From Ectothiorhodospiraceae bacterium WFHF3C12 (lineage in GTDB: Bacteria > Pseudomonadota > Gammaproteobacteria > Nitrococcales > Nitrococcaceae), in NCBI GenBank assembly GCA_013519935.1, contig JACDUA010000018.1, positions 1-64,000 on the forward strand: a DNA stretch of 64,000 nt. Reading direction: 5' to 3'. Position 1 is the first letter of the stretch, and the number at the start of each line of letters is the position of its first letter. The notes under the pieces are model-generated. The model saw only the letters and a program-made list of their open reading frames with translations. It was not told where the DNA came from and searched no databases. The position numbers were made by a program, and so were the translations under genes. Below are positions 6,296 through 33,167 of the stretch, piece after piece.

Positions 6296-6433
6296 CGACG
6301 GCGTGCCTTGTTGGCGAATAGCTGCGGGAACGTGCTGAGACGGCCACGGTGGTTTTCCGCCCGCGTGCCGGGGTTTATGGTGCCTTGCATGGTTCCGTCG
6401 GATTTGCCGGGTGATCGAGGCAACTGAAAACGT

Positions 6434-7537: not shown

Positions 7538-7603
7538 TTGGCCTTTGACGGCGGATGACACGAGATGAGTCCGGACGGCGTCCGGGAATTTCCACGCTGA
7601 ACT

Positions 7604-7873
7604 TTACTTGAACGCATGACCCACGTCGGCGTCGGAAAACCGCTTGTGGGTGCCGTCGCAGAACGGGGCATTGCCGGTGTGCTTGCAGCGGCAGAGGAAG
7701 GCCTCCTTGTCCTCGTCGGCGGTGAAGACCAGAGGTGTGAAGCCCGTTCCCTTGTGGGAGCCGTCGCAGAAGGGCTGGTTGCTGGAGCGTCCGCACCTGC
7801 AGAACGCGTATTTCTCACCGGCGGCGAGCTGCACCTTCGCCGGCGAATTGGCGGCAACGACTGGATTCGGCAT
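7604..7873 (-). CDS. CDGSH iron-sulfur protein with two clusters
   Basis: 89 aa, with a strong ribosome site (GGAGG) before its ATG. It holds two complete CDGSH motifs: Cys25, Cys27, Cys36, His40 in CRCGRSSNQPFCDGSH, and Cys61, Cys63, Cys72, His76 in CRCKHTGNAPFCDGTH. Each should bind a [2Fe-2S] cluster with 3Cys-1His ligation, as in MitoNEET-family proteins of the double-motif class. There is no signal or membrane anchor, so it is cytosolic. The role in bacteria is not settled; redox or Fe-S transfer is the usual suggestion. It is transcribed alone and is convergent with the PepSY gene. Confidence 0.95.
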   Translation of the reverse strand: MPNPVVAANSPAKVQLAAGEKYAFCRCGRSSNQPFCDGSHKGTGFTPLVFTADEDKEAFLCRCKHTGNAPFCDGTHKRFSDADVGHAFK

Positions 7874-8012
7874 GGAGCCTCCTCGGCTTGGCTCTTTGTG
7901 GGTCCCACTATTCCCCAGATTAGGCGGGAAGGCGCGCTCGTCAATCCGAACGGCCCTCGCGGTATCCGGAACTGTCGCCGGGACGGACGCGGGCGTGGCG
8001 CGGCGGCCATGC

Positions 8013-11006
8013 TCAGCGTGTCGTCACCGACAGGGCCAGCGGCACCCGGCTGTTCGACTCCGTGTCGGTCTCGCGCGGCTCGACGACGCGCAGCCGCGCC
8101 TCCTCGATGCCCCCGCCCAGCGATCCGCCGCCGCTCACCAGTGCAGCGCGCACCGCACTGGCGCGTTCGCCGGCGAGCGATTCGAGGGCGGTCCGCGACA
8201 CGGACTGTGCCTCGATGATCCGGCTGGCGAGGTGCGCCTGCCAGGCGACTTCGTCGAAGACCGCTTCGGCATCGGGCTTGTCTTCCGGCGGGCGGGTAAA
8301 GCGCTCGCGCAGGGCGTCGAGGTCCGCGTCCGGGTAGGCGTCCATGAACAGGGCGCGGACGGTGTCGCGCACCGCCTTGTCGGTGAGCGAGAGCTCGCCG
8401 TCTTCGCCTTCGGCCTTGCCGAGGCGTTCCCGCAAGGCCGCGAGCGCCTGTTGCCGCCTCAGCGCCGGCTCGTCCAGTGACGGCGCATAGGTGCCGGCGA
8501 TCTCCAGGGCGAGCTGCGGGCGCTTCTCGAGGGCGGCGGCGAGCTTGCCGGTCTTCTCGCGTTGCGGCGGGGTCAGGTCGCTGCGCCCGGCGAGGAACTC
8601 GATGGTTCCCAGGTCCTCCGAGCCCAGCCCGAGGATGGAACCCAGCAGGCGGAAGGGCGACTTGACGATGTCCCTTATGGTCGTCGCCAGCACCTGCCGG
8701 ATGACGCCGGCGATGTCGAATTGCGGGTCGTTGACGTCTCCGGAGACCGGTAAAGCGATGTCGATGACGCCGTCGGCGTCCTTGAGCAGGGCCACGGCCA
8801 GGCCCAGGGGCAGGTCCGCGGCGTCCGGGCTGTCGACCTTCTCTCCCAGCTCGAGGTCGCGCAGCACGATGTCGTTGTCGCCCCTGAGCTGGCCTTCGTC
8901 GAGCCGGTAGGCGAGATCCAGGTCCATGTTGCCGTCGGCGATGCGACGCCCGGCGAACTGAACGGTGTACGGCGAGTAGTCCGGCATCTTCAGGTTGCGG
9001 AACTCCATGCGGATGTCCGTGAACCGGGCCGGCGCCCAGGTGTTGATGCTGCCGTCGATACGGGCCAGGCCGTTGTCGCCCACCTGCCCCTCCAGGTCCA
9101 CATTGGCGGGTTCGGTGCTTTCCGTGGCCAGCGTGGAGATGCCGCCGTCGAGGTCGGCGATACGGGTGGAGAACGGCAGCGGCAGGGAGTAGTCCGCGAA
9201 GTCGAGCCGTCCGCCCGCCACCCGGACCCCGCCGAGCGTCACGGCAAGCGGCTCCTGCGTCGCTTCCCCGTCCTGCGCGGCCCGTTCTTCCGCCGCGCGC
9301 TGCACCAGCAAACGCCCGATGTTGGTGGTCTTGTCCTCGGCGATGACGAAGGTCGCCGAAGGCTGTTCGATGACGACAGGGGATGTCTCGACGCGCCGGC
9401 CGCCGAGGGACAGGTCCAGGGTTTCGACCCGCACCGCCGCCCAGCCCAGCACGGGCTCCCCCGCGTCAGCCGTCTTCACGTCCAGCGTCTGGACGCTGGC
9501 CGAGCCCCGATAGCTGAATGGCTCGCCGGGGCCGATGCCCAGCTCGCCGTCCAGGTTGAAGGCGCCATTATCCAGCCGGACGCGGGCGAATTGCTGCAGG
9601 TACGCCTGCGCCGGTTCGAGCTTCAGGTCCGTGACGCTGGCAGTGCCGCTCAGGGTGAACGCCGGCCGATAGCCGAGACGGCCGTCGAACTCGAGTCCGC
9701 CGCCGCTGGCCACGGTGCCCTGAATCCGGGCCGGGAACCTTGCGCCGTCCTCGGTGGTGAAATCGTCCAGCTGTACGGACACGTCGTTCAGGCCGAGCCG
9801 GGTGGCGGGCTCGGTGGAGCGGTCCTCGAACTCGGCGGCGAGGCCGTTCACCCGAAGCGCGCCCAGTTCCAGGGCCAGCGGTGCGCCGGTTTGTCCGGCG
9901 GTTTCGGCCGCCGGATCAGCCTCGTTGTTCTCCTCGGGGAGCAGGGTGAGCAGACCCAGCTCGCCCTGTTCGGTCAGCCAGGTCCGAAAACGCGGCTCCT
10001 CGACGGCCAGCGAGTCGACCCGCGCCCGGCGTTCACCCAGGTTGAAGGCGATGCCTTCGGCCCGGACCGCCTCGGTCGCCAGGAACTCCACCGCCGGGTC
10101 GAAACCGGAAACGCCAAGGTCACGCAAGGCCAGGGTGCCCCCGGATACGGTCAACTCCGGGCCGTCTTCGGCGAGTCCGGCGTTGTAGTCGAAGCCCCCG
10201 TCCAGCGTCAGCCGGAACCCGGAGAGGGCGGCGAACCGACGCAGATAGGGCAGCAGCGGGTCCAGCACGATTTCGTTGAGCTCGATCCGGCCGGCGGAGC
10301 GCAATGGCGCCAGCTGAACGGTGCCGTCCCAGGTGAGATTGCCGCCGCTTTCCAGTGCGACGCGGACGGTATTGCGGCCTTCCCGGTTCGGCCGGGTATC
10401 GAGGCCGTTCAACGTCACGGAAATCGGGTCGAGTACGAAGGAGACGGTCTCATCCGGCAAGTGATCGACGAAGCGCACGCGGCCCGCGTCGAGCCGGAGA
10501 TCCTCGATCAGCAGGCTGGGACCGCCGTCGGGCTTCGCCTCCGGCTCGGGGACGGCGCCTTCGGTGGCAACGGGTGGGGTCAGATCCTCGACAAGGCGGG
10601 CGAAACGGCTCGTACCGTCCGCGAACCGTTCCTCCTGTAGCGCCAGGCCGTCGAGATGCACGGTCTGGAATGTCCAGGCCCGGTTGAGCAGGCTGGCCAG
10701 CGTGAAGTTCACGACAAGCCGGTCGAAGGCGACGAGCGGTTCGCCGTCGGTATCGGCGAGGGCCAGGCCGTTTATCTGCAGCGTGAAGGTGTAAGGGTTG
10801 AAGCGCACCTCGGCGATGCGCAACTCGCGGTCGTAGTCGGCGCGGACCGTCTCGATGGCGGTGCTCCGCACGAGCCAGGGCAGGAGCAGGAAGCCGATGG
10901 CCGTGTACGCCAACAGCGCCAGCACCACCCAGAAGCGCTTCGCGCGCCAGTTCAGCCAGTTCCGGCGCAGGGACGGCCAGCGGGAGGAGGCGCTTTGTTC
11001 GTTCAA
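8013..11006 (-). CDS. DUF748 (AsmA-like) envelope protein
   Basis: 997 aa. The start is a TTG at 11004-11006, chosen because GAGGAT lies just upstream on the minus strand and because the frame opens with a cytoplasmic basic segment followed by one TM helix (residues about 27-47, FWVVLALLAYTAIGFLLLPW). The rest is periplasmic: DUF748 repeats such as LRIAEVRFNPYTFTLQINGL and the module FTDIRMEFRNLKMPDYSPYT. The C-terminal 200 residues contain FLAGRSDLTPPQREKTGKLA, reminiscent of an OmpA-type repeat of large DUF748 proteins. AsmA/DUF748 proteins are thought to form hydrophobic channels that move phospholipid between inner and outer membrane. It is a single-gene transcript. Confidence 0.9.
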   Translation of the reverse strand: MNEQSASSRWPSLRRNWLNWRAKRFWVVLALLAYTAIGFLLLPWLVRSTAIETVRADYDRELRIAEVRFNPYTFTLQINGLALADTDGEPLVAFDRLVVNFTLASLLNRAWTFQTVHLDGLALQEERFADGTSRFARLVEDLTPPVATEGAVPEPEAKPDGGPSLLIEDLRLDAGRVRFVDHLPDETVSFVLDPISVTLNGLDTRPNREGRNTVRVALESGGNLTWDGTVQLAPLRSAGRIELNEIVLDPLLPYLRRFAALSGFRLTLDGGFDYNAGLAEDGPELTVSGGTLALRDLGVSGFDPAVEFLATEAVRAEGIAFNLGERRARVDSLAVEEPRFRTWLTEQGELGLLTLLPEENNEADPAAETAGQTGAPLALELGALRVNGLAAEFEDRSTEPATRLGLNDVSVQLDDFTTEDGARFPARIQGTVASGGGLEFDGRLGYRPAFTLSGTASVTDLKLEPAQAYLQQFARVRLDNGAFNLDGELGIGPGEPFSYRGSASVQTLDVKTADAGEPVLGWAAVRVETLDLSLGGRRVETSPVVIEQPSATFVIAEDKTTNIGRLLVQRAAEERAAQDGEATQEPLAVTLGGVRVAGGRLDFADYSLPLPFSTRIADLDGGISTLATESTEPANVDLEGQVGDNGLARIDGSINTWAPARFTDIRMEFRNLKMPDYSPYTVQFAGRRIADGNMDLDLAYRLDEGQLRGDNDIVLRDLELGEKVDSPDAADLPLGLAVALLKDADGVIDIALPVSGDVNDPQFDIAGVIRQVLATTIRDIVKSPFRLLGSILGLGSEDLGTIEFLAGRSDLTPPQREKTGKLAAALEKRPQLALEIAGTYAPSLDEPALRRQQALAALRERLGKAEGEDGELSLTDKAVRDTVRALFMDAYPDADLDALRERFTRPPEDKPDAEAVFDEVAWQAHLASRIIEAQSVSRTALESLAGERASAVRAALVSGGGSLGGGIEEARLRVVEPRETDTESNSRVPLALSVTTR

Positions 11007-18556: not shown

Positions 18557-19915
18557 ATGAAAACTCCCGGCGGAATAAGGCATTGGTCCTGGGTGCTCGG
18601 GTTGTTCGTGCTCGGTCTCGCGTTGGCGGGATGGCTCATTGCCAGCCGGGAGCCACCCGGGCGGTCCGCAGCCATCGATGAGGGGCTGGCTGTCTCCGTG
18701 GTGCGCGTGCAGGCGTTGCCCGTCGTGCCGCGGGCCGTCGGCTATGGTTCCGCGCAGCCCGGCCGGACCTGGCAGGCCGTGGCGGAAGTGCCGGGCCGGG
18801 TCACCTACCGCCATCCTAAGCTGGAGCCCGGCGCCCTCATGGGTGAGGGGACCGTTTTGCTCCGGTTGGACGCGACGGACTACGAGCTGGCTGTCGCCCA
18901 GCTGGAGGCCACCGTGGACGCGCGCGCCGCGGCCCTTGAGGAACTGGATGTGCGCACGGCGAACACCCGCACGGCCCTGGATATCGAGCAGCGCCGCCTG
19001 GCGCTGGCCGAGGGCGAGCTGGAGCGGTCCCGCTCGCTGGCCCGGCAGGGCAGTGTTTCGGCATCCGAGGTGGACGCCCAGCAGGAACGGGTGCTGCAGA
19101 TCCGTCAGTCGGTCCAGCAGCTGAAGACCACCCTGGCGGCCCGGCCCGCGGAGCGCAGGCGGCTGGTTGCGGAGCTGGAACGTGACAGGGCGCAGCTCAG
19201 GCAGGCCCGCCGCGACGTGGACCGCACCGTGATACGGGCGCCCTATGACCTGCGTATCGCCGCAGCGCCCGCCGAGGCCGATCAATACGCCGGCAAGGGG
19301 GAGACCCTCCTGCGTGGCGACGGCGTTGCGGTCGCGGAAGTGATTGCCCAGGTGCCGGTTTCGGCCTTCCGCAACGTCCTCAAGGGTGTCGTGGCCGGAA
19401 GCCTGCTGCCGGGCTCGACCCCCGACCTCGATCCGCTCTCGGCCCGGATCACCCTGGTCTCCGGCGGTGACGCCGTTCATTGGGATGCCCGGGTTGCCCG
19501 GGTGACGGGGAGCATTGACCCCCAGACCCGCACGGTGGGTGTCGTGGCCGCCGTGGACCGTCCCTACGCGAACGCCGACCCGCCGGCGCGGCCGCCGCTG
19601 GCCAAGAACATGTACGTGCGGGTGGAGGTGCGTGGCATTCCGCAGCCGGACGCGCTGGTGGTGCCGCGAGCGAGCGTGCAGGGCGGACGCGTGTACGTCG
19701 CCAATGACCAGGACCGGCTGGAGATCCGCGACGTGGAGATCGCCTACCGCCAGCAGGATTTCGTGGTCGTGGCCGACGGGTTGAAGGCAGGTGAGCGGGT
19801 GCTGCTTGGGCACCCGGTCCCGGCGGTGGAGGGCGCCAGGCTGGCACCGGCCGCCGACAAGGCCACGGAGCGTCGCGTGGCCAAGCAGGCGACGGCCGGG
19901 GAACAGCTGCCATGA
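18557..19915 (+). CDS. RND efflux periplasmic adaptor (MFP) subunit
   Basis: 452 aa with a single N-terminal membrane helix (residues about 9-29) and no lipobox. The membrane-fusion-protein layout is clear: a first lipoyl half with TWQAVAEVPGRVTYRHP, a long alpha-helical hairpin (about 105-215, rich in Arg/Glu/Leu), the second lipoyl half RDVDRTVIRAPYDLRIAA, a beta-barrel domain and a membrane-proximal domain ending VVVADGLKAGERVLL. It links the inner-membrane pump to an outer-membrane channel, whose gene is not present here. The stop overlaps the pump gene by 4 bp (ATGA). Expression is probably controlled at the promoter/operator at 18493-18537. Confidence 0.93.
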   Translation: MKTPGGIRHWSWVLGLFVLGLALAGWLIASREPPGRSAAIDEGLAVSVVRVQALPVVPRAVGYGSAQPGRTWQAVAEVPGRVTYRHPKLEPGALMGEGTVLLRLDATDYELAVAQLEATVDARAAALEELDVRTANTRTALDIEQRRLALAEGELERSRSLARQGSVSASEVDAQQERVLQIRQSVQQLKTTLAARPAERRRLVAELERDRAQLRQARRDVDRTVIRAPYDLRIAAAPAEADQYAGKGETLLRGDGVAVAEVIAQVPVSAFRNVLKGVVAGSLLPGSTPDLDPLSARITLVSGGDAVHWDARVARVTGSIDPQTRTVGVVAAVDRPYANADPPARPPLAKNMYVRVEVRGIPQPDALVVPRASVQGGRVYVANDQDRLEIRDVEIAYRQQDFVVVADGLKAGERVLLGHPVPAVEGARLAPAADKATERRVAKQATAGEQLP

Positions 19916-22900
19916 TCCGCTACCTGGCCGCCCATCCCAACGCCGCCAACCTGCTGATGCTCATCATCGTGGCTGCTGGCGTGTTGAGCATCCCGCAGAT
20001 CCAGCGGGAGACGTTCCCCCGCTATGCCGCGGACCGCGTCGGTGTGGAGATCGCGTATCCGGGCGCTACGGCGGCGGACGTGGAGGATGCGGTCTGCCAG
20101 CGCCTGGAGGACGCGCTGCAGGGTACGACAGGTCTCGAGGAGCTGCGCTGCGAGGCGCGGGAGAACCTGGGGTTCGCCGTGGCGGAGCTGCGAGAAGGTG
20201 GAGACGCCGGTCGTTTCCTCGACGACGTGAAGACCGAGGTCGAGGCCATCGACGACTTCCCCGAGCGGGCCGAACGGCCCATCGTGCGCGAGCTCGGGCG
20301 CACGGATTTCGTGGCGTCCCTGGCGGTGACCGGGCCGATGTCCGACGGCCACCTGAAGGCCTACGCCGAGGATCTGAAGGGGCGGCTGCTGCAGCTGGAA
20401 GAGGTCTCCCAGGTGGATCTCAAGGGGTTTTCGGACCACCAGTTCCGGGTGGAGGTGGACCGGACCGTGCTGCGCCAGCATGGCCTGAGCGCCGCCGAGC
20501 TGGGCCGGCGCATTGCCAGCCAGAACGTGGACCTCCCCGGCGGCGTCATCGAGACGGCGGATCAGGACGTGCTGATCCGCATGACCGACGAGCGCCGCAG
20601 TGTCGAAGACCTGGAGGCCCTGGTGGTCATCGGCGGCGCCTCGGGGGGCGAGATCACGCTCGGGGACATCGCCACCGTGACGGACCGTTTCGAGGACGAG
20701 GCCGAGCGGATCGAGTTCAACGGCCGGCGCGCGGCGCTGCTGGAGCTGCGCAAGACGCGCTCGGAGGATGCCCTTCGGGTCGTGGACGCGGTGCGCGACT
20801 ACGTGGCGCAGGAACGCCGGCGCATGCCCGAGACGGTCAGCATCAAGCTGACCCAGAACGTTTCGTCCATCGTCCGCGACCGGCTCTCGATGCTGGCCGT
20901 CAACGGGCTCCAGGGGCTGGTCCTGGTGTTCCTCGCCATGTGGGCCTTCTTCAGCTTTCGCTTCTCGTTCTGGGTGGCCCTCGGGCTGCCCGTGTCCTTC
21001 CTCGGTACCGTGTTCTTCATGCACCTGTTCGGCCTGTCGCTGAACATGATCAGCATGGTGGGGCTGCTGATGGCGATCGGTCTGCTCATGGACGATGCCA
21101 TCGTCATTGCGGAAAACATCGCCGCCCACCTGCGGGAAGGCCGCGAGCCCCTGGACGCCGTGGTCCACGGTGTCCGGCAGGTGGCGCCCGGCGTTCTGTC
21201 CTCCTTCATAACCACTCTGGCCGTGTTCGGCCCGCTGGCCTTCATCTCCGGGGATATCGGGCAGGTGCTGCGCGTGATGCCTATCGTGCTGCTGGTCACC
21301 CTGGCCGTGAGCCTCCTGGAGGCCTTTTTCATTCTGCCCCATCATCTGGTCGGCCCGGTCAGGCGTATGGCCCGGACCGGGCCATCGAGGTTCCGTGCCG
21401 GACTGGAGCGGCGGTTCGAATGGCTGCGGGAGCATGTCGTCGGGGCCGCGGCCGACCTGGCCGTGCGCTGGCGCTATCCGTTGCTGGGCGCGCTGCTCTT
21501 CGGCGCGGCGCTCACCGTGGGACTGCTTGCCGGGGGCCGCATTCAGTTCCAGGCGTTTCCCGACATCGATGGCGACGTGGTGCACGCGCGGCTGCTGATG
21601 CCGCAGGGCACCCCGCTGCACGTGACCCGGGAGCGGGTGGGCCGCATCGTCCAGGCACTGGAGCAGGTTAATGCCGAGCAGACGCCGCGCCAGCCCGGGA
21701 CGAGGCCGTTGGTGCAGAGCGTGCAGGTCCGTTTCGGGGAAAACGCCGACGCGGGCACCCGTGGCGCCCACCTGGCCACGGTCATTGTCGATCTGTTGGG
21801 GGCCGAGCAGCGCCGTCTGACCCTGGACGAGCTCTACCAGGCGTGGCGGGACGCGCTGGGCCCGCTGCCGGACGCCATGCAGTTCACCCTGCAGGAGCCG
21901 GGCCTGGGCCCGCAGGGGCGCGCGCTGGAGTTTCGCCTGTCGGGGACCGACCTGGACCGGTTGAAGGCGGCCGCGGCGGAGCTCAGGGGCTGGCTCGCCG
22001 GTTTCGAGGGTGCCCACGACCTGATGGATGACCTGCGTCCGGGTAAGCCCGAACGCCGTGTGCGCCTGCGTGAGGGCGCCTCCGCCCTGGGGCTGACGTC
22101 GGCCGAGATCGCGGATCAGCTGCGTGCCGCCTTCCTCGGCCAGGAGGTGGCGGAGGTTCAGGTAGGGCCGGAGGGCTACGAGATCGAGGTACGTCTGGCA
22201 GCCGGCAATCGCGACAGCCTGGCGGACCTCAGCGACTTTGCCGTGACAATGCCGAACGGCGACGCCGTGCCGCTGGACGCGGTAGCGGAGATCGAACCGG
22301 CCAGGGGCTGGGCCCAGGTGGTGCGGATTGATGGACGCCGCAGTGCGACGGTGATCGGGGATGTCGACACCGCGGTGGCGAATACCATGGCCATCATCAA
22401 CCGGACTCGGACCGAATTCCTGCCGCAACTGCGTGAGCGCTTTCCCGGCGTCGATGCCAGTGTAGAAGGGCAGGCCCGGGAGTCGGCTTCCACCGGGCAG
22501 TCCGTGGCCCGAGGGTTCGTGATCGGCCTGCTGGGCATATTCGTTGTCCTGGCGTTTCAGTTCCGCAGTTACGTGGAACCGTTGGCCGTCATGGTCGCCA
22601 TTCCCATGGCGATGATGGGCGCTGCCTGGGGGCATTTCCTCACGGGTTACGACCTGTCCATGCCGAGCGTGGTTGGAGCGGCGTCTCTGGCCGGTATCGT
22701 GGTCAACGATTCCATCCTGCTGGTGTACTTCATCAAGATGCGCGTGGCCGAGGGCCGCGCGGTGGCGGAAGCCGCGCGGCTGGCGAGCCGTGACCGGTTC
22801 CGGGCGGTATTGCTGACGTCGCTGACGACCATCCTGGGACTGTTCCCGCTGCTGGCGGAGACGAGTCTGCAGGCGCAGGTCCTCAAGCCACTCGTGATCA

Positions 22901-23034
22901 GCGTGGTATTCGGCCTGCTGGTGTCGACGGTGTTGATTCTGCTGGTTCTCCCGGCACTGTATAGCGTTCTCGACGACCTGGGGCTGGCCCGGGCCGGCAA
23001 TGAGGGCATTCCGGCAGAGGTCGCGGGCGGATGA
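19912..23034 (+). CDS. RND-type efflux pump, inner-membrane permease
   Basis: 1040 aa, normal for AcrB-like pumps. The fold is visible: TM1 (LLMLIIVAAGVLSIPQ), porter domain starting PGATAADVEDAVCQRLEDAL, TM2-6 cluster from LQGLVLVFLAMWAFFSF, and the TM4 motif GLLMAIGLLMDDAIVIAEN with the proton-relay Asp pair. A second large periplasmic loop follows and then TM8-12 ending LVISVVFGLLVSTVLILLVL. It belongs to the AcrB/MMPL-related group with the short PGAT-type first loop found in many proteobacterial pumps of unknown substrate. It overlaps the adaptor gene and the TetR gene by 4 bp each, so all three are translationally coupled. Confidence 0.95.
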   Translation: MIRYLAAHPNAANLLMLIIVAAGVLSIPQIQRETFPRYAADRVGVEIAYPGATAADVEDAVCQRLEDALQGTTGLEELRCEARENLGFAVAELREGGDAGRFLDDVKTEVEAIDDFPERAERPIVRELGRTDFVASLAVTGPMSDGHLKAYAEDLKGRLLQLEEVSQVDLKGFSDHQFRVEVDRTVLRQHGLSAAELGRRIASQNVDLPGGVIETADQDVLIRMTDERRSVEDLEALVVIGGASGGEITLGDIATVTDRFEDEAERIEFNGRRAALLELRKTRSEDALRVVDAVRDYVAQERRRMPETVSIKLTQNVSSIVRDRLSMLAVNGLQGLVLVFLAMWAFFSFRFSFWVALGLPVSFLGTVFFMHLFGLSLNMISMVGLLMAIGLLMDDAIVIAENIAAHLREGREPLDAVVHGVRQVAPGVLSSFITTLAVFGPLAFISGDIGQVLRVMPIVLLVTLAVSLLEAFFILPHHLVGPVRRMARTGPSRFRAGLERRFEWLREHVVGAAADLAVRWRYPLLGALLFGAALTVGLLAGGRIQFQAFPDIDGDVVHARLLMPQGTPLHVTRERVGRIVQALEQVNAEQTPRQPGTRPLVQSVQVRFGENADAGTRGAHLATVIVDLLGAEQRRLTLDELYQAWRDALGPLPDAMQFTLQEPGLGPQGRALEFRLSGTDLDRLKAAAAELRGWLAGFEGAHDLMDDLRPGKPERRVRLREGASALGLTSAEIADQLRAAFLGQEVAEVQVGPEGYEIEVRLAAGNRDSLADLSDFAVTMPNGDAVPLDAVAEIEPARGWAQVVRIDGRRSATVIGDVDTAVANTMAIINRTRTEFLPQLRERFPGVDASVEGQARESASTGQSVARGFVIGLLGIFVVLAFQFRSYVEPLAVMVAIPMAMMGAAWGHFLTGYDLSMPSVVGAASLAGIVVNDSILLVYFIKMRVAEGRAVAEAARLASRDRFRAVLLTSLTTILGLFPLLAETSLQAQVLKPLVISVVFGLLVSTVLILLVLPALYSVLDDLGLARAGNEGIPAEVAGG

Positions 23035-23654
23035 ATGCCCAAGCCCCGAGACGCCAACGAAAGTCGGCCGAAGAGCGCCGGCGGGAAATCGTCGACGCCG
23101 TGCTGGCCCTGGCCTACGAGTATGGGCCGGACAGCATTACGGCCGGTGCCATCGCCGAGCGGGTCGGCTTTGCGCAGCCGGCGGTCTTCCGGCATTTCCC
23201 CACCATGGCCGACGTCTGGCTGGCAGTCGCCGACACGGTGGGCGAGCGGGTGCGTGAGCGATGGGACGCCGTGGACGACCCGGCTCTGCCGGCCGGGGAA
23301 AGGCTGCGCGCCGTGCTCAGCGCCCACCTGGGTGTCATCACGGCCAATCCGGGGCTGCCGTCGGTTCTCTTCTCCCGGGAGCTTCAGGCCGGAAACAGGG
23401 AGCTGCAGGCACGGTTCGCGCGGCACATGGAGGGGTTCGTGGAGCGGCTTCAGTCGCTGATCACCGCCGGCCAGCGGGCCGGCGAGATCCGCCCGCACCT
23501 CGACGCCCGCCGCGCCGCGTACTCGATTATCGGGCTGTTGCAGGGAACGGCATTCCGATGGGCGCTGAACCGCCAGTCGTTCGATCTGCAGTCCGAGGGC
23601 ATGGGCGCCTTCGAAGTGCTCTGGTCGGGGCTGAGCTCGCCCACCGCGGCGTGA
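23031..23654 (+). CDS. TetR-family repressor of the efflux operon
   Basis: 207 aa. Residues about 14-60 are a TetR helix-turn-helix: RRREIVDAVLALAYEYG, then ITAGAIAERVGFAQPAVFRH and FPTMADVW. The C-terminal all-helical ligand domain (about 75-205) is variable. The ATG lies inside the stop of the pump gene (ATGA), so it is the third cistron of the efflux operon; that position and the dyad over the promoter at 18520-18537 suggest autoregulation of the whole operon. The inducing ligand is not predictable. Confidence 0.93.
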   Translation: MNAQAPRRQRKSAEERRREIVDAVLALAYEYGPDSITAGAIAERVGFAQPAVFRHFPTMADVWLAVADTVGERVRERWDAVDDPALPAGERLRAVLSAHLGVITANPGLPSVLFSRELQAGNRELQARFARHMEGFVERLQSLITAGQRAGEIRPHLDARRAAYSIIGLLQGTAFRWALNRQSFDLQSEGMGAFEVLWSGLSSPTAA

Positions 23655-23725: not shown

Positions 23726-24700
23726 CTAGATGTCGCCCAGGTGCAGGTGCTCGATCTGCTCGAGCTCCTCGGGCCGGAAGGCCTGCCGGAGCAGCTCCCC
23801 CACCTGGGCGCGCTTGTCCGCTTCGGAGAGGCCCGCCCGCAGAATGCGCGCTTTCTCGGCCTGAAAACGCGCATGACGCTCATCCCAGTTGTCGATGTGG
23901 ATGTAGGCGTGCTGCAGCTCGGCGTGGAGTGCGTCGACCTTCGCCAGCTTTTCCTCTTCTGAGAGGTCCGGGTCCAGCTGGATCCGGTGGGCCCGGAACA
24001 TGTACGCCGCGTTGGCGTCGCTGGTGCGGAACAGCTGCCGCGCCGCGTCCGGCCCGAGATACTGTGCGCGGAGCTGCCTGAGCCGTCGGTAACGGGCCTC
24101 ATGCGTGGCAATTGCTTTATCGGCCGCGGGTGCCTCGCCGGTGGTGCTCATGTACTGTTCTTCGGCCTGGAGGTAGCGGTAGTAGTCACCGACGACCTCG
24201 GCCGTCTGCTCGCCGGCTTTTCCGGGCAGCCGTTCCCGAATGAGCGCTTGCAGTTCCGCCAGGGCCAGTTCGTCCAGCGGCAGCCGGCCATACTCCAGTG
24301 AACGGTTCAGGGCCTGGCGGGCGCGGTCATCGAGAATGACATCCCCGTTGGCGTCCAGGCGGACGTTGCGAAGGGATTCGCGCACGGCCCGAATCGTGAA
24401 GGGATGTTCGTCATCAACAGCGTTGGACGGTCGCGCAGGACGCCCGGATTCGCTCGCTTTCGGTGCCCGGATCAGGCGCCACAGGTCCCCCAGGGTTGTC
24501 ACCCGGTTCTCGCCCTGGCCGACGCCTTGAGGGCGTTCGGCTGGCGCCGATGCGGCGCCGGCGCGTTGCGGGGTCCCGCCGGCGCTGTCGCCCGTGATTT
24601 CCAGGTAGCCCGCGCTGGCGGCCAGGGCGAGTGCGACCAGCGCGCCGGCCGCGCGGGGAAATCCGGTGTGGCTGGTCTTCGCTTCCGTGTTCGGATTCAT
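23726..24700 (-). CDS. lifO: Lipase chaperone (Lif-type foldase), divergent
   Basis: 324 aa. An N-terminal membrane anchor (about residues 15-34) and a Gly/Ala/Pro-rich linker lead into the Lif fold: SLRNVRLDANGDVILDD, RLPLDELALAELQALIRERL, a long helical arm with YLGPDAARQLFRTSDANAAY, and RIQLDPDLSEEEKLAKVDAL. These match the periplasmic steric foldases needed by subfamily I.1/I.2 lipases. The signature RxxFDY(F/C)LSA box near the first mini-domain is not conserved; the aligned segment reads RQALNRSLEYGR. The start codon overlaps the AraC stop by 4 bp, so the two are coupled. No classical lipase is adjacent; the nearest secreted esterase is the PETase-like enzyme two genes upstream. Confidence 0.8.
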   Translation of the reverse strand: MNPNTEAKTSHTGFPRAAGALVALALAASAGYLEITGDSAGGTPQRAGAASAPAERPQGVGQGENRVTTLGDLWRLIRAPKASESGRPARPSNAVDDEHPFTIRAVRESLRNVRLDANGDVILDDRARQALNRSLEYGRLPLDELALAELQALIRERLPGKAGEQTAEVVGDYYRYLQAEEQYMSTTGEAPAADKAIATHEARYRRLRQLRAQYLGPDAARQLFRTSDANAAYMFRAHRIQLDPDLSEEEKLAKVDALHAELQHAYIHIDNWDERHARFQAEKARILRAGLSEADKRAQVGELLRQAFRPEELEQIEHLHLGDI

Positions 24701-25569
24701 ACGGCAACGTTTCCTTCAGTGATCCCGGCGACGAGCGCGAGGGCGGAATCGTCGATGACGGCATCGATATAGGGGCGCCGCGAAAAGACGGCCGAGGGGG
24801 TGATGCCGTTCAGCGCCCGGTACGAGCGCGAGAGATGAGCGGAGTTGGAAAAGCCCGCGCCAAGGGCGGCGTCGGTCATCGAATGACCCAGTGCCATGAG
24901 TATACTGGCCAGGAACAGGCGATAGCGCATGCGGTACTGGGTGATGGGCAGCCCAGCCTGTTCCTTGAACAGTTTCTCCAGCCTCGAGCCGGACAGGTTA
25001 ACCTCGGCGGCCAGCTCGGCCAGCGCGATGCCGTCGAAGAGGGTCTCCCGGATGCGCCGGGCCACGTGGACAGCACGGCGGTCAAATGCGCGAAACCTTC
25101 TGTTGGCGAGCCCCGGCGGCAACATCGCCTCGCGGATGATCTCCCGGGCCCGCGCGGGCGGCGTCCGCTTGCGGTCCCGCACGCCGGTCGCCGCTTCCAC
25201 CAGGGCCCGTTCGTTGGGATGATCGTAGTAGATGCCCGGCAACGCGGCTTTCATGACACTGCGCATGGCCGCGTAGTCCTGGGCAAACGGCGCCAGGTAA
25301 TAGATGGCCACGACCGCGTCGTTGGCGTCGACGCAGGAGCGGTCTATCCACAAGCCGGCCGGGACCACGCAGCTGCGGGTGGTGGCGACACCGCCTCGCG
25401 GCGTACGGAGCCTGAGTTTGCCGTTCAGGGCGAGAACGAGCTTCTCCTGGGTGGAGCGCCGGCGTTGTTGCCTGGCGGTGCCAGTGCCCAGGAACAGGAC
25501 TTCCCGCGACCACATGTACAGTTTCGGTGGTCTCAGGCAGGGGATGGATTCGTCGTAGCGTACAGACAT
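24697..25569 (-). CDS. AraC-family transcriptional regulator
   Basis: 290 aa. The C-terminal 100 residues carry two AraC helix-turn-helices: GIALAELAAEVNLSGSRLEK with LFKEQAGLPITQYRMRYRL, then MTDAALGAGFSNSAHLSRSY and ALNGITPSAVF. The N-terminal half looks like a cupin-type sensor (KLRLRTPRGGVATTRSCVVP, AGLWIDRSCVDANDAV), a layout shared with regulators of lipid-related genes. It overlaps the lipase foldase by 4 bp (start of foldase inside its stop) and lies 133 bp downstream of the PETase-like gene, separated by a hairpin. It plausibly controls foldase and hydrolase expression. Confidence 0.9.
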   Translation of the reverse strand: MSVRYDESIPCLRPPKLYMWSREVLFLGTGTARQQRRRSTQEKLVLALNGKLRLRTPRGGVATTRSCVVPAGLWIDRSCVDANDAVVAIYYLAPFAQDYAAMRSVMKAALPGIYYDHPNERALVEAATGVRDRKRTPPARAREIIREAMLPPGLANRRFRAFDRRAVHVARRIRETLFDGIALAELAAEVNLSGSRLEKLFKEQAGLPITQYRMRYRLFLASILMALGHSMTDAALGAGFSNSAHLSRSYRALNGITPSAVFSRRPYIDAVIDDSALALVAGITEGNVAV

Positions 25570-25632
25570 CGGACACCGGGTCCTCTATCGAAACGGTCCA
25601 TCCGTGGGCCGGTTGCCTGCGAAATCGAAGCA

Positions 25633-25659
25633 GCCGGACCCGCCCGTGACGGGTCCGGC
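25633..25659 (-). terminator. Terminator of the PETase-like gene
   Basis: Perfect 10-bp stem GCCGGACCCG / CGGGTCCGGC with a 7-nt loop, 44 bp beyond the stop of the hydrolase. On the minus strand it is followed by a mildly T-rich run (TGCTTCGATTT). It suggests that the hydrolase is mostly transcribed alone. Confidence 0.6.
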
Positions 25660-25702
25660 ATGACGGCGGCGAACGCGTCCCCTTCGCCGCCGTATTCCCG
25701 GA

Positions 25703-26647
25703 TCAGTACGGGCAGGTGCCCCGGTATTCGGAAACCTGGTATTCGCTTTCGTGATTGGGGCCACAGAGGAACTGCTCGTAGCGCTGGTCCTCGTCCAGGT
25801 GCAGCTTCATCCAGGACACGCCGTACTTGCCCAGCAACTCGTCGTAAGCGTTGCCGCCGTTGGCGCAGGTATGACTGCCATTGTTCATCTCGAAGAACGC
25901 CTTGTCGGTGGCGTCCGGGATGTCGTTGTAGAACGGCGAGGCGTGGGAGCTGACCGGTGCGACGGCATCACTCTCGCAGGCGAAGATCAGCGTCGGCGTC
26001 TGTATCTCGTCGAAGTCGTTGAAGCTGGAGTTCCACGGCGCCAGCGGCATTGCCGCCTTGAGCCGGCCTGGCTCCGCGGCCAGCTGCAATGTGCCGCCGC
26101 CGCCCATGGACCAGCCCACGGCCGCCAGGCGGTCGCCGTCGACCATGCCGCTGATGGCGCTGGAGGACGCATTGCTCTGGCCGACCAGATAATCCAGGGC
26201 GGCGTCGATCTGGTCTTTCCGGGACCCGGGCTGGTCGTAAATGGAGTTGGTATCGATGGTCATGACCACGAAACCGTGGGAGGCCAGCCGCGGACCCCAC
26301 CACTCGATGGAGGACTCATACGACACGTAGCCGGGGATCACGACGATGCCGCCCATCGAGCCGCTGGTGTTGGTCGGATAGTGGATGGTGCCGCCGCCGA
26401 AGCCGCTGACGAACGAGGAGACGTTGCTGGTGGCGACGTTGTAGGGGCCGCTGGAGGCCTCCAGGTAGGAGTCCGTGGGATCGGGACCGCGGGTGTATCC
26501 GCCGTTGCCGCCGTCATCGCAGTCGGTCTGGCATGGCTCCGGGTCGTCGTCCGGCGGCGGGTTCTGCGCGGAAGCCGACGCCGAAAACAGCATGGCCGCG
26601 GTCAGGGCGACAACCAGGCCCAGCGCTCGTTTGAGTGATGGATCCAT
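25703..26647 (-). CDS. Secreted PETase-like polyester hydrolase (type II features)
   Basis: 314 aa with a strong ribosome site (GGGAGGAGG) and a Sec signal peptide ending near residues 26-28 (SASASAQ). After an acidic Gly linker with a Cys pair (Cys39, Cys43) comes a cutinase/PETase alpha/beta-hydrolase fold: [58 protein letters not shown] and [10 protein letters not shown]. Catalytic triad Ser180-Asp227-His259. Compared with Ideonella PETase, Tyr107, Trp179, Met181, Trp205 and Asn263 match the substrate-site residues. Cys224/Cys261 match the extra active-site disulfide that defines type II enzymes and Cys295/Cys312 the C-terminal one, while His235/Phe239 replace the Ser214/Ile218 pair and Thr260 replaces Ser238. 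Natural substrate may be cutin-like or other polyesters. Confidence 0.9.
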
Positions 26648-28039: not shown

Positions 28040-29209
28040 CTAGCTTTCCCGTCGGTCGGGTCCGCGGAAGGGTTGCGCCGCGGGGGACGTGCGAATCACG
28101 GCAACCAGCTCGGTCTGGCGATGGGTGCCGGTCTTGGCGAGGACCCGCTCGAGGTGGACACGCGCCGTGCTGCGGCTGATGGCCATGATCTGGGCCGTTC
28201 GTGCTACCGTCCGGCCCCGGGCGATGTGACTGGCGAGCTCGGCTTCGCGGGACGTGAGCCCGAAGACCTCGCATAGCGAGTCGATGCAGATCCGGGAAAG
28301 CGCCTGTTCCCAGATCATGACCATTGCGGCGGCGCCGCTGGGTTTGGCCGAGCCCTGCTCGCCCGGCAACGGTGCTGTGAGTGCCGTGCATGTTTGCCGG
28401 CCGTCAGCGGAGGTCAGATGCAGCAGACGGCGCCGGCGGTCGTCGTCCTTGGCGGCGATGACGGCCTTGATCCGGGCGTGCAGGGTCCGGTCGTCTCCCT
28501 CCCTTGCCAGTCGTATGCGGCCGTGGTGAACGTGCAGGATGCGGCTGCGGCTCATCAGGTGCTCGGCGGCCGCATTGCGATAGACGATGTGGCCGTCTGC
28601 GTCGACCACGAGAACGGCCGTGGGCAGGTAGTTCAGGCAACTCGTCAAGGCGGATGAAATGGACCGTTCGGCGTGTAGCTTTTCGCCGACGAGGGCGGCA
28701 CTGCGGATCAGGCTCGCCACGGCCGGGAAGTCCGGTGGCGCATCCGGCACCCGGGCGGGTCTTCGCGGCCCCCTCAGGAGCAGGGCGAAAAGGGTACGCT
28801 GGGCGTTCTCGTGAAGCCGGGCGCCCGAGTAGGACTGCCAGTCCGGGTTCCGGCTTAGCCAACGGTGGAAATCGGCGTTCCCGGCGCTCGGGCACGCCTC
28901 GGTGAGGCCATCGTGCACGCAGGGCAGGTCCGGGTGGGAACGCAGGAATTCCAGCCTCGGGTCGGCGTTGACGTACTGCCGCGTGTAGGCATCCCATACA
29001 TCGCCGGGAACGCCGGCCTGCTCGCTGTATATACACTCGTAGGTGCGGCGGTCCAGGGCGAGGAGCGCTGCCGCCGGCGCCTCGAAGTAGTCCGCGACGC
29101 TGCCCAGAAACCCCCGCCACTGGGACGGATCCACTGCAGCCGCGTGGGATTCCCTGGCCAGACGCAGGAACCAGCCCCCTGCGCATTCCGTTTTCGGTGA
29201 CGGTTCCAT
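28040..29209 (-). CDS. LuxR-type regulator with N-terminal sensor domain
   Basis: 389 aa from the ATG at 29209; the open frame continues to 29365, so the start is uncertain. The C-terminus is a LuxR DNA-binding domain: FGLTSREAELASHIARG, then TVARTAQIMAISRSTARVHL and ERVLAKTGTHRQTELV. The central part has a PAS-like segment (LPTAVLVVDADGHIVYRNAA), preceded by a region with WRGFLGSVADYFEAPAAALL. It is a paralogue of the two regulators at 30704 and 31953, with the same architecture and spacing. The signal is unknown. Confidence 0.85.
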   Translation of the reverse strand: MEPSPKTECAGGWFLRLARESHAAAVDPSQWRGFLGSVADYFEAPAAALLALDRRTYECIYSEQAGVPGDVWDAYTRQYVNADPRLEFLRSHPDLPCVHDGLTEACPSAGNADFHRWLSRNPDWQSYSGARLHENAQRTLFALLLRGPRRPARVPDAPPDFPAVASLIRSAALVGEKLHAERSISSALTSCLNYLPTAVLVVDADGHIVYRNAAAEHLMSRSRILHVHHGRIRLAREGDDRTLHARIKAVIAAKDDDRRRRLLHLTSADGRQTCTALTAPLPGEQGSAKPSGAAAMVMIWEQALSRICIDSLCEVFGLTSREAELASHIARGRTVARTAQIMAISRSTARVHLERVLAKTGTHRQTELVAVIRTSPAAQPFRGPDRRES

Positions 29210-29459
29210 TCCCTGTGTCCCCGTTCCACGCACGATCGCGATCCACACGCCCTCGGCATGATGGCGTGGAGTCCCAGGCGCGGCCGGGAGGCTTCCATTG
29301 GAATAATTTGAGAATACGGCGCATCGCGCCTGGAAGCCTTCCCTGGGGAACGCCGGACAGCGCACGACGGCCCCGTCCAGCGTTCCTTCATAGTTAGAGC
29401 AGAGAATATTCCCAAAATCAGCTCTTCCGGCTCGAGCGCCGGCGTCGGGAGCCGTGTTG

Positions 29460-30029
29460 TCAGAACGTGACCAGGGCGCCGATACTGAAGTTCGTCACGT
29501 TATGGCGGAAACGGTCCTCGGTCTCGAAGCCGAAAATATCCACGCCGGCGCGCAGGCCGAACCCGTCCCCGATGTCCGCCTCGAAACCCAGGGCAATGCC
29601 CATGGTGCTGCCGGTCTCTTCTCGTTCCTCGTAGCCGTCGACCGACTGTTCGATCCGCCAGTCGATGAAGTCCAGCCGCCCGCTCAGGCGCACGTCGTGA
29701 CTCAAGGGTAGACGCAGCACCGGCCCGGCCGTGAACGCATGCAGGTCCGTCTCCACCCGGGTGGCGCCGGAATCCACGACGAAATTCCCGTAATTGCGCA
29801 GGCCCGCCTCCAGGGCGAATGTCTCGCCGAAGCTGAAGCCGCCGAAAAGCCCGGCGCTGGCACCCCCGTAGCCGTCGTAGCGCTCGCCGGACGGCGTCTC
29901 TTCCTGGACGCGGCTGGTGCCGATGGACACGCCGGCATAGACGCCGGTGGCGACAGCCCCTTGCGAGAACAGCACGGAGCCGGAAATGACCAGCGCGGCG
30001 CCGAGCTTGAACAGGTTCCAGGCACGCAT
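29460..30029 (-). CDS. Small outer-membrane beta-barrel protein
   Basis: 189 aa with a signal peptide ending near Ala27 (SQGAVA). The mature protein is a run of amphipathic beta strands with Gly and aromatic residues (GVYAGVSIGTSRV, GYGGASAGLFGGFSFGETF, LEAGLRNYGNF, FTAGPVLRLPLS, GLRAGVDIFGF) and a C-terminal VTNFSIGALVTF ending in Phe, the typical sorting signal for BAM-dependent barrels. It resembles the eight-stranded OmpA/OmpW-like class. The ribosome site GGGAGTG supports the start. Function unknown. Confidence 0.8.
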   Translation of the reverse strand: MRAWNLFKLGAALVISGSVLFSQGAVATGVYAGVSIGTSRVQEETPSGERYDGYGGASAGLFGGFSFGETFALEAGLRNYGNFVVDSGATRVETDLHAFTAGPVLRLPLSHDVRLSGRLDFIDWRIEQSVDGYEEREETGSTMGIALGFEADIGDGFGLRAGVDIFGFETEDRFRHNVTNFSIGALVTF

Positions 30030-30211
30030 GTTTCACTCCCGGTTCGCATTGCCGGACAGCGTGGGACAACGCAGCTGAACGGCGCCTGAACGGCCATGGA
30101 AGCCTTGGTCTCTTGCAGGCATGGCGCCCATGCGGGCCTGTTCGATGGCCCGGCGGACGTCCGGCTACACTGGAAAGGGATGCGGTGCGGTTAGCGTCGA
30201 GGAGGCAGGCC

Positions 30212-30667
30212 ATGAAGCTCTACATCGCGCAACACGGAGCCGCGCTGTCCAAGGAAGAAGACAGCAGCCGTCCGCTCAGCGAGCGGGGAAGGGACGACGT
30301 CCGGCGCCTGGGCCGGTGGCTGGCGCACGCGGGCCTCGGTGACATTGAATTCGTGCACAGCGGCAAACTTCGGGCCCGGGAGACGGCGGAACTCATCGCC
30401 GCGGCGGTCGGTGGCACCGCGGGCGAGGCGGACGGCCTGGGCCCCAACGATGACCTCGCGCCGTGGCTGACGCGTCTCGGCGATGCGCCAGGCGACCTGG
30501 CGCTGGTGGGGCATCAGCCCTTCGTGGGAAGACTCGCGACACGGCTTCTCAATGGCCGGGAGAGTCCATCCGTCGTCGCATTCGAACCCGGCACGATGCT
30601 CTGTCTGGAGCACGGGGACGAGTCGTGGACGCTACGCTGGATGGTCGGGCCGGTGCTTTGGGGCTAG
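30212..30667 (+). CDS. sixA: Phosphohistidine phosphatase SixA
   Basis: 151 aa from the ATG at 30212, after GGAGG. It is the shortest form of the histidine phosphatase fold. The catalytic motif is QHG at the N-terminus (MKLYIAQHGAA, His8 being the phospho-acceptor; most family members have RHG, many SixA proteins QHG). The second catalytic region is LVGHQPFVGRL, with the conserved SKLRARETAEL-like segment HSGKLRARETAEL between. SixA dephosphorylates histidine in phosphotransfer proteins (in E. coli linked to ArcB and NPr). No phosphotransfer partner gene is adjacent. Confidence 0.93.
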   Translation: MKLYIAQHGAALSKEEDSSRPLSERGRDDVRRLGRWLAHAGLGDIEFVHSGKLRARETAELIAAAVGGTAGEADGLGPNDDLAPWLTRLGDAPGDLALVGHQPFVGRLATRLLNGRESPSVVAFEPGTMLCLEHGDESWTLRWMVGPVLWG

Positions 30668-30703
30668 CGAGGCGCAGCATATCTATTCAGTTCGAGGCGG
30701 GGA

Positions 30704-31909
30704 TCAGCCGGCCGGATCCGGCATCGGCCTCGCCGTCCCGGGCTCGCTACCCTGTCGTTCCGGATCGGGCCGGCCTCCGGTCGCGGCCCAGGGCTTACCG
30801 CAGATTAGCCGAATGAGCTCCACCTGCCGCGAAGTACCGGTTTTGGCCAGCACGCGTTTCAGATGGGTTCGCAGCGTCTCTCTCGATACAGCCCAATCGT
30901 CGGCGATCTGCGCCAGTTCGCTACCGCGGCCGAGACCGATGGCGAGATTCGCTTCCGCCGGCGTCAGGCCGTATAGCTCGCGAAGCAGTGAAGCGTCCAG
31001 TACGCCGGTCTCGTCCAGATTTCCCACATAGACCGCGGTGTCTGCCCTCGAACCGCTAACCGCTCCCTGCGCAGGCGCGGATATGGCCACGAGGTGAGGG
31101 CCATGATTGTCCGGTGAACGCAGCAGCAAAGGCTGGTTTGAGGTCAGTGGATGCATGTCGGGTCGGGACAGCAGCTCGATAAGGGGTTCATGTCCGCCGC
31201 CGCATTGAGGCGCCGCCGCCAGCAGCCGCCCTCCCGAAAGACGAAACCGCGTATCGTCCCTGATCAGCGCCTCGCCGACGCCGTTGGTGTGGGTCAGTCG
31301 GCCGGTATCGTCCAGCAGAAAGCAGGCGACACCAATCCCGTCGAGCGCGGCTTCCGCCGCCGCCGCGCGCTGGGCACTGCGCTGCATCGTGCGCTGAAGC
31401 CAGAGGGCGCGGCGCAAGTGGGGCGCCAGCGTCTGCAGCGCTGCCAGCACCTGGTTGTCAAACCGCGCCGCGTTGCTGTGGCGGTGCAGGCCGATCAGCG
31501 AGCATGCCTCGTCCTCATGCCGTTCGAGGATCCCGCCAACGATGAAGTGATTGTCCAACGGGCACATGTAGCTTCGGTAGAACTCGGTGTGGCGAAGGGC
31601 TTCCAGGTCGATCATGTTGTCATTGGTGACCATGCGGCCGGTCGGAACCCGATCGAGCACCTCCAGATAGGGATCTTCCTGCACGAGCCCGCCCTCATAG
31701 TCCTGCTGCAGCGGGTCGTGCATGTTGTAGTGATACGTGGCGTGGACATCGCGATGGGGCCCGGTCCTCACGGTGCGCAGCACGGCGGACTTGGCGCCGA
31801 ACGTGTGGGCGATGCAGCAGAGCACCTCGGGCCAGTGGGCGGCGTCGGCTGACGCTTCGTACAGCATGCCGACGATCCGGCTCCATTTTTCGACGTCGAG
31901 CTGTCTCAT
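30704..31909 (-). CDS. LuxR-type regulator, second paralogue
   Basis: 401 aa. The LuxR domain reads YGLTPAEANLAIGLGRGSEL, AQIADDWAVSRETLRTHLKR and VLAKTGTSRQVELIRLI. The first 200 residues are a sensor domain (LYEASADAAHWPEVLCCIAH, then a region with DPYLEVLDRVPTGRMV) and a PAS-like middle (GVACFLLDDTGRLTHTNGVG). The gene starts 43 bp after the third paralogue on the same strand, so the two are probably co-transcribed with the alpha/beta hydrolase upstream. It is closely similar in layout to the regulators at 28040 and 31953. Confidence 0.88.
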   Translation of the reverse strand: MRQLDVEKWSRIVGMLYEASADAAHWPEVLCCIAHTFGAKSAVLRTVRTGPHRDVHATYHYNMHDPLQQDYEGGLVQEDPYLEVLDRVPTGRMVTNDNMIDLEALRHTEFYRSYMCPLDNHFIVGGILERHEDEACSLIGLHRHSNAARFDNQVLAALQTLAPHLRRALWLQRTMQRSAQRAAAAEAALDGIGVACFLLDDTGRLTHTNGVGEALIRDDTRFRLSGGRLLAAAPQCGGGHEPLIELLSRPDMHPLTSNQPLLLRSPDNHGPHLVAISAPAQGAVSGSRADTAVYVGNLDETGVLDASLLRELYGLTPAEANLAIGLGRGSELAQIADDWAVSRETLRTHLKRVLAKTGTSRQVELIRLICGKPWAATGGRPDPERQGSEPGTARPMPDPAG

Positions 31910-31952
31910 CGTTGCCTGCCTTTGTAGTTGTTTTTCGTGCGGGCCGTGCCCC

Positions 31953-33167
31953 TTAGTGCACCTCGGTGCGGCCGAGGGCCCGTGGCGCCGCGGACGGATC
32001 GCTCATCAGGTTCCAGGGTTTGCCGGTAAGCAGGCGGACGAGGTCCGCCTGCCGGGACGTCGCCGTCTTGCCCAGTACGCGTTTGAGGTGCGTTCGCAGT
32101 GTCTCCGTCGATACCGACCACCGGCCGGCGATCTCCGTCAGGGTATCGCCGTTCGAGAGCGCGATGGCGAGCTCCGCTTCCCGGTGGGTCAGGCCGTATA
32201 GCCGGCGCAGCACTTCGCGATTGAGCAGACCCGCCTCCTCGAGACTGCAGATGAACAATGCGACGTTTGCGGAAGGCCAGGGATCGAGGAAGTGCCGTTG
32301 CGTTGAGGTTACCGGTAGCGCAACCACCAGTCGTTGAGGTGCATCGGCCGGATGCTGCAGCAGCGCGGCTTCCGGCGCCGCCGGTCCCCCTGCACGGGCA
32401 CGCTGGGTCACGACGCTTAGCAATTGTTCAATCGTCGCGGCGTTGGCTGTGTTGCCGGCGCGCAGGATCCCGTCCCGCTGGGTCAGGTCGTTGCCATCGC
32501 GGAGCATGGCCTCAGCCTTGGTATTCATGGTCAGTGCCCGCCGCTGCTCGTCGAGCAGGATGACGGCTACGGCCATGGCCTCGAGGGCACGATCACTGCT
32601 TGCGGCGCGGGCATCGGCAACGCGCAGCAGGTGCCCGAGCCTCACGGATCGCTGTATATGCGGAACCAGCCGCCGGATGAAGCCGGCATCATCCCAGGAG
32701 AAGGGTCCGCTGCGGTGGTCGCGCTGAACGCCGAACTTGATCGTGAACTCCGCGTTGCGCATCGCCAGCCCGCCGCAGATGTAGTAGTTGTCCTGGGGGC
32801 GCGCATATTCGTTGAAGAACTCCGTGCGCCTGTAAGCCCGGGAATCGAGGAAAGCTTCACCCGGGGCCACGTAGACGTCGGGAGCGTGCGTGAGGGCTTC
32901 GACAATGGGGTCCTGGGATACGTAATACTGCTGGTAGGCGGCCTGCAGCTGCTCGTCCAGGTTGTGATAGATGCCGGTGCGAAGTGTCCGGGTGCGCTCA
33001 TCCACCACACGGAACAAGCCGGACTTTGCGTTGAGCGTAGAGGCGAGCCCTTCCAGGAAGACCCGCCACTGATCCGGATCAGTCGCCGACTCATAGACCG
33101 AATCCAGCAGCGCCGAGAAAGTGTCCATGTCGTTGGTTTTCCCGGTCTTGCCGTGCCAGCCACCCAT
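31953..33167 (-). CDS. LuxR-type regulator, third paralogue
   Basis: 404 aa; ATG at 33167 is preceded by GGAG inside the last codons of the hydrolase gene, though the family-like start MDTFSALLDSVYES at 33128 is also possible. The C-terminal LuxR domain is YGLTHREAELAIALSNGDTL, TEIAGRWSVSTETLRTHLKR and VLGKTATSRQADLVRLL. The N-terminal sensor contains WRVFLEGLASTLNAKSGLFR and FFNEYARPQDNYYICGGLAM. The gene begins 4 bp after the hydrolase stop, implying co-transcription and a functional link to that enzyme. Confidence 0.88.
   Translation of the reverse strand: MGGWHGKTGKTNDMDTFSALLDSVYESATDPDQWRVFLEGLASTLNAKSGLFRVVDERTRTLRTGIYHNLDEQLQAAYQQYYVSQDPIVEALTHAPDVYVAPGEAFLDSRAYRRTEFFNEYARPQDNYYICGGLAMRNAEFTIKFGVQRDHRSGPFSWDDAGFIRRLVPHIQRSVRLGHLLRVADARAASSDRALEAMAVAVILLDEQRRALTMNTKAEAMLRDGNDLTQRDGILRAGNTANAATIEQLLSVVTQRARAGGPAAPEAALLQHPADAPQRLVVALPVTSTQRHFLDPWPSANVALFICSLEEAGLLNREVLRRLYGLTHREAELAIALSNGDTLTEIAGRWSVSTETLRTHLKRVLGKTATSRQADLVRLLTGKPWNLMSDPSAAPRALGRTEVH

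Follow-up and report, generated by a model that had tools for sequence, protein, structure and literature searches.

The secreted hydrolase encoded at positions 25703–26647 of the window (the 64,000-nt stretch of DNA analysed here) belongs to a minus-strand cassette with the order hydrolase, AraC-family regulator and LifA, the name we give here to a lipase-chaperone-like gene (23726–24700) and its clade. We consider it reasonably probable that the hydrolase is a polyester-cleaving type II enzyme and that LifA is kin to the lipase foldases with a changed client, aiding maturation of the hydrolase. The initial annotation described the enzyme and left the other two genes unmentioned. The enzyme itself is a well-supported additional member of an already known group; what specialists would not expect is a partnership of the PETase family with a foldase clade that lacks the foldase motif.

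Class and structure of the hydrolase

The open reading frame assigned to this interval is present there on the minus strand, with an ATG start and 314 encoded residues; a plus-strand reading of 25703–26647 does not give it. Its product matches the Pfam PETase family PF12740 at 389.6 bits (E 8.6e-117; cut-off 28) and scores 329.6 bits against the NCBIfam BHET-hydrolase equivalog model, under the cut-off of 520. The signal peptide claimed earlier agrees with our own reading of the sequence by eye, which places a predicted Sec-type peptide at residues 1–27 with cleavage after ASA (26567–26647, minus strand); the structural model has a helix at residues 4–12 and low confidence at residues 13–38.

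We aligned the hydrolase with IsPETase, PE-H, Ple628, PET2/LipIAF5-2, PET44 and about 90 homologues and counted residues over 97 rows. The family placement agrees with the chains found by PDB search, 6ane among them. In this alignment the proposed triad of Ser180 (codon 26108–26110), Asp227 (25967–25969) and His259 (25871–25873, all minus strand) corresponds to S160, D206 and H237 of IsPETase. Trp179, claimed to precede the catalytic Ser in place of His, aligns with W159, and the residues assigned to the binding site, Tyr107, Met181, Trp205 and Asn263, fall on Y87, M161, W185 and N241. Val229 stands for I208 and Thr260 for S238, as described. Both predicted disulfides are in register with those of IsPETase, Cys224/Cys261 with C203/C239 (and with C214/C251 of PE-H) and Cys295/Cys312 with C273/C289, and the loop after the catalytic His has the IsPETase length that had been noted, aligning with no gap. 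Two features that the initial annotation listed as differences are present but do not set the hydrolase apart: His235 and Phe239, at the S214 and I218 positions, are the family norm in 84 and 91 of the 97 rows, and the Cys39-x3-Cys43 pair is common to PET2/LipIAF5-2 and PET44.

The assignment to type II holds, given that three features, the second cysteine pair, Trp179 and the length of the loop, point to this type and that tree and structure agree. Set against the type II criteria of Joo et al. 2018, the hydrolase has the fold and triad, the Trp, the second cysteine pair and the extended loop. A structure prediction and a tree had been proposed as checks. The AlphaFold model (mean pLDDT 85.7) lies about 1 Å from crystal structures of PET hydrolases, with an rmsd of 0.9 Å to PET2/LipIAF5-2 and 1.0 Å to PET44. 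In the tree, built by a quick method, the hydrolase falls inside the PETase clade and joins PET2/LipIAF5-2 and PET44 with support 92, in a starred clade (97*) that also contains Ple628 and PE-H; IsPETase lies outside this clade, on what is a long branch in a quick tree. Plasmid sequences contained only distant relatives, below 60% identity.

Neither subtype fits cleanly, because Thr260 breaks the IIa rule and the phylogeny is not that of IIb. By definition, type IIa has Phe or Tyr in place of IsPETase Ser238 (Joo et al., PMC5785972), a position at which the hydrolase has Thr; it nevertheless groups with the gammaproteobacterial type IIa enzymes in the 97* clade and does not group with IsPETase, the representative of IIb. 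By sequence, then, the enzyme is a type II PET hydrolase that branches on the IIa side yet resembles IIb in having a small residue at position 260.

Thr260 (codon 25868–25870, minus strand) lies in subsite II and corresponds to Ser238 of IsPETase and Tyr250 of PE-H. The 97 rows have Phe in 45, Tyr in 41, Ser in 5, Trp in 4, a gap in one and Thr in the window hydrolase only, which thus carries neither the Phe/Tyr of type IIa nor the Ser of IsPETase. In PE-H, the Y250S substitution more than doubled the cavity, from 153 to 362 Å3, and more than tripled activity on p-nitrophenyl butyrate (PMC7031157). Because this change enlarged the PE-H cavity, we expect by analogy that Thr260 instead of Tyr or Phe would make the cleft roomier. 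The window enzyme is a natural variant exactly where a single change improved PE-H.

The hydrolase likely cleaves polyesters, since PET44/Dh3 is active on both polycaprolactone, which it clears, and PET powder, which it degrades (PMC10547765); PE-H cleaves PET film (PMC7031157). It is also quite probable that polyesters such as PET are incidental substrates and that in nature the enzyme acts on a different polymer or on a lipid, for instance cutin, suberin, PHA or storage esters. PET is a young material, and the hydrolase belongs to a clade that spans marine and haloalkaline bacteria. A GDSL hydrolase linked to the cassette in two other loci (L158, L194) hints at broader ester use, and a search of the host genome gave no tannase/MHETase match, though the search controls gave none either. 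Such a native substrate would not conflict with polyester activity in the test tube and is compatible with our main reading.

The cassette and the LifA protein

The hydrolase gene is separated from the AraC gene by a 133-bp gap (25570–25702, minus strand) with two strong hairpins (RNA fold −73.8 kcal/mol, z −3.34 against shuffles), in which we searched for a U-run terminator and found none. The AraC-family regulator (24697–25569, minus strand; 290 aa, PF12833 and PF00165), whose target we infer, has homologues at roughly a dozen further loci, close to PETase genes there. LifA, also on the minus strand, is a predicted membrane-anchored protein of 324 aa whose gene overlaps the AraC gene by 4 bp. 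Pfam searches found no lipase among its neighbours in the window.

Other genes of the window and the host genome may be recorded here. An RND efflux system (HlyD-type and AcrB-type) with a TetR regulator, at 18557–23654, is convergent with the LifA gene. Three LuxR-type-looking regulators of 401–441 aa lie on the minus strand at 28040–33167, two of them adjacent and possibly paralogues; two match the LuxR HTH and one has no Pfam match. The host genome has a type II secretion (T2SS) secretin and, on contig C97, a canonical lipase-foldase pair. Convergent with that pair is a gene for a membrane acyltransferase resembling Lnt (L101:3363-5057), homologues of which come after LifB, a shorter LifA-like gene, in PETase cassettes. 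Contig C92 carries a second Lif-like gene without a lipase (L102:5171-6265), which lacks the foldase motif and falls on the LifA side of the tree.

LifA matches PF03280 (Lipase_chap) at 56.6 bits, above the cut-off of 25.7. Its score of 60.5 bits against the NCBIfam lipase secretion chaperone model does not reach the cut-off of 285, which is a weak test because the canonical foldase of C97 misses it too (228). The LifA model (pLDDT 79.1) has a helical body preceded by an N-terminal helix, the predicted membrane span. Foldseek returned lipase foldases alone at E<=0.001, with 9g8u and 2es4 as the best fold matches, and VIA-align gave lipase foldases Z scores of 12.4 and 11.9 (next row 5.2), a size of Z that may be a common arrangement among helical proteins. 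The LifA sequence profile, however, retrieves the same foldase chains, a result that points to genuine kinship.

The foldase motif RxxFDY(F/C)L(S/T)A, which belongs to the first mini-domain, is needed for lipase activation, and its mutation kills foldase activity (PMC7046727). It was found in none of the 19 members of the LifA clade (18 LifA and the C92 gene), compared with 13 of 14 lipase-type foldases, and a 99* branch separates the two groups. In the PETase-linked copies the helical domain is also shorter by about 50 aa. Since the lipase-activating motif is missing, the mechanism of LifA cannot simply be copied from Lif. It could be that LifA is not a foldase but a holdase, an inhibitor or an export escort, keeping the hydrolase silent or free of aggregation until it meets the type II system. 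The absence of the motif in all LifA, the shortened helical domain and the existence of membrane-bound T2SS chaperones for non-lipase cargo, such as CpaB of Acinetobacter (PMC4713064), would all suit this idea; sequence alone does not separate a holdase from a foldase, however, and the predicted fold is that of a foldase, and so we regard it as doubtful. LifA most likely serves PETase-type hydrolases in the periplasm, as a foldase or as a chaperone for secretion.

As a separate observation, the LifA of L040 (485-1186) apparently has a lipobox (ILVGAC) in place of the membrane helix, which may mean a switch to a lipid anchor.

Linkage of LifA with PETase-family genes

Among 369 evenly drawn gammaproteobacterial genomes, the three with a close PETase are the same three with a strong LifA, and the genes are adjacent in each. 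If the two were independent, the chance of this coincidence would be 1 in 8.3 million, or 1 in about 37,000 by genus, because two of the three genomes share a genus. A second gammaproteobacterial draw, centred on another point and searched with a fuller model, brought back the same genomes and is a repeat, not new evidence. Within the order of those two genomes, 6 of 109 genomes have a PETase and the same 6 have LifA, again adjacent, all from one genus. There the gene order (L121, L122) is PETase, LifA, the shorter LifB and an Lnt-like (apolipoprotein N-acyltransferase-like) protein in which, from our reading of the alignment to Lnt, the conserved positions for Glu, Lys and Cys are retained. 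The window cassette has neither a LifB nor an Lnt-like gene.

We also searched in the reverse direction, with LifA alone against 391 Pseudomonadales genomes, taking the surroundings regardless of PETase. This gave 11 new lipase-free LifA loci in 9 genomes, of which 9 adjoin a PETase-family gene and two (L197, L202) have no hydrolase adjoining LifA; L203 and L204 are lipase-chaperone pairs. The linked hydrolases are of type II, type III (L196) and a third PF12740 group (L198–L201). In L192 and L193 the order is PETase, AraC, LifA, LifB and Lnt-like gene, while in L194 and L195 the PETase is divergent from LifA-LifB-Lnt. A type III PETase homologue immediately precedes LifA in L196. The hydrolases of L198–L201, four close relatives of one another, are divergent from LifA and have the GWSMGGG elbow, lack the type II cysteines and carry His for Trp185; large secreted-looking proteins lie nearby in L199–L201. 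In Marinobacter zhanjiangensis (L160), a type III homologue (E 1e-84 to 9w68, 1e-74 to 2fx5) is followed by AraC and LifA, the last two overlapping by the same 4 bp as in the window; the other two of the three Marinobacter loci (L161, L162) have no hydrolase adjoining LifA.

The linkage is far from universal. A strong LifA was found in only 12 of the 45 PETase-bearing gammaproteobacterial genomes searched, Halopseudomonas, the home of PE-H, has weak canonical matches or none, and in several genomes LifA and the type II PETase are on different contigs. Two results count against a partner role: PE-H made in E. coli without LifA was soluble and active (PMC7031157), and Dh3/PET44 made likewise cleared polycaprolactone (PMC10547765). 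Because these enzymes work without LifA, and because of the 12 of 45 genomes, LifA is not essential for every PETase, and it may bring a benefit in folding, export or protection in some lineages.

A stricter interpretation of the same facts would be that the hydrolase is an ordinary type II enzyme that folds alone and that LifA, with no role in maturation, is the relic of an ancestral lipase-foldase operon. A possible route to such a relic can be seen in A. ehrlichii (L104), where the gene for PET44 has a canonical lipase-foldase pair just upstream of it and AraC downstream, and both the lack of LifA in the majority of PETase genomes and the activity of close relatives from E. coli fit it. We nevertheless find it improbable: the linkage spans many lineages, three hydrolase groups and both same-strand and divergent layouts, and it survives a search blind to PETase. 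Nor is it what one would expect of a relic that the frame stays open, that the core is conserved and that the 4-bp overlap with the regulator gene recurs. The recurrent pairing instead suggests that PETase-type hydrolases have a dedicated, so far undescribed maturation partner. We lean slightly towards a broader statement, namely that a whole foldase-like clade of membrane proteins, separate from the lipase foldases, is devoted to at least three PETase-family groups, often as a hydrolase-LifA-LifB-Lnt-like module and with AraC in several loci. In the literature searched, whose coverage left out most subscription journals, we found no report of a PETase paired with a foldase or lipase chaperone.

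A small residue at position 260 as a rule accompanying LifA was considered and dropped. The enzymes of five loci (L032, L040, L193, L194, L195) have Phe or Tyr and still adjoin LifA, and for the Psychrobacter enzyme with Ser (L066) there is no more than a weak Lif match, elsewhere in its genome. The Lif-checked proteobacterial type II enzymes with a small polar residue there, namely those of the window (Thr), L035, L043 and L192 (Ser) and genus g159 (Asn), all adjoin LifA; L066 is the exception. L035, from proteobacterium 005FR1, encodes two tandem PETases (5887-6819 and 6870-8180) with Ser at the 238 position, and the loop of one, HSCANSGNSN, is identical to that of IsPETase; type IIb has been reported only from Burkholderiales.

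Proposed role and comparison with known systems

In the maturation scheme we favor, the hydrolase would leave the cytoplasm via Sec, and LifA, anchored in the inner membrane, would meet and embrace the new protein at the outer face of that membrane, in the periplasm. LifA would fold or hold it during disulfide formation, and the hydrolase, now active and secretable, would be handed to the type II system and cleave polyester through Ser180-His259-Asp227. Both halves of this idea have precedent: in Burkholderia vietnamiensis, degradation of the polyester mcl-PHA requires a lipase, a chaperone and the T2SS (PMC13101487), and CpaB is the membrane-bound chaperone already mentioned.

Most studies of PET hydrolases have produced the enzyme in E. 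coli as a single protein. If the scheme is correct, native PETases would be secreted enzymes helped by a chaperone, a partner that work in the field has so far left out, and if many of them have a dedicated folding or export partner, co-expression could raise yield, stability or secretion. LifA would also be a genomic beacon for unknown polyester hydrolases, a use that our LifA search has already made of it.

The lipase-specific foldases (Lif; 2es4, and 9g8u of LipB) share with LifA the PF03280 domain, the N-terminal anchor helix and the helical foldase fold. Unlike them, LifA has no foldase motif, a shortened helical domain and no adjoining lipase, and its neighbors are of the PETase family.

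The closest named relative of the hydrolase, PET2/LipIAF5-2 (7ec8), is 75% identical to it in the structural alignment and shares the triad, both type II cysteine pairs and the CQTDC linker; it has Trp in place of Thr260. PET44/Dh3 of Alkalilimnicola ehrlichii (8otu), from the same bacterial order as the window, is 72% identical and shares the downstream AraC family, but it has Tyr at position 260, and its neighbor is the canonical lipase-foldase pair where the window has LifA. PE-H of Halopseudomonas aestusnigri (6sbn; Y250S, 6scd) has the type II fold and both disulfides, as predicted for the window hydrolase, and differs in Tyr250 and in a genome with only a weak canonical Lif match. Similar to the window hydrolase, IsPETase of Ideonella sakaiensis (type IIb) has Trp159, a small residue at 238, the same loop length and both disulfides; it is 52% identical, sits on a separate branch and carries Ser214/Ile218 instead of His/Phe.

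The host genome itself (G000) encodes a second secreted hydrolase on contig C83 (L103:2527-3513), with a GHSQGGGG elbow, whose nearest matches are type III PETases (9k0h at E 4e-20) and which has no adjoining LifA. Type III PETases such as HaloPETase1 and PmC differ from the window hydrolase in their GHSQG motif, the absence of the active-site disulfide and Tyr for Trp185 (PMC13396203), yet their homologues in L160 and L196 likewise adjoin LifA.
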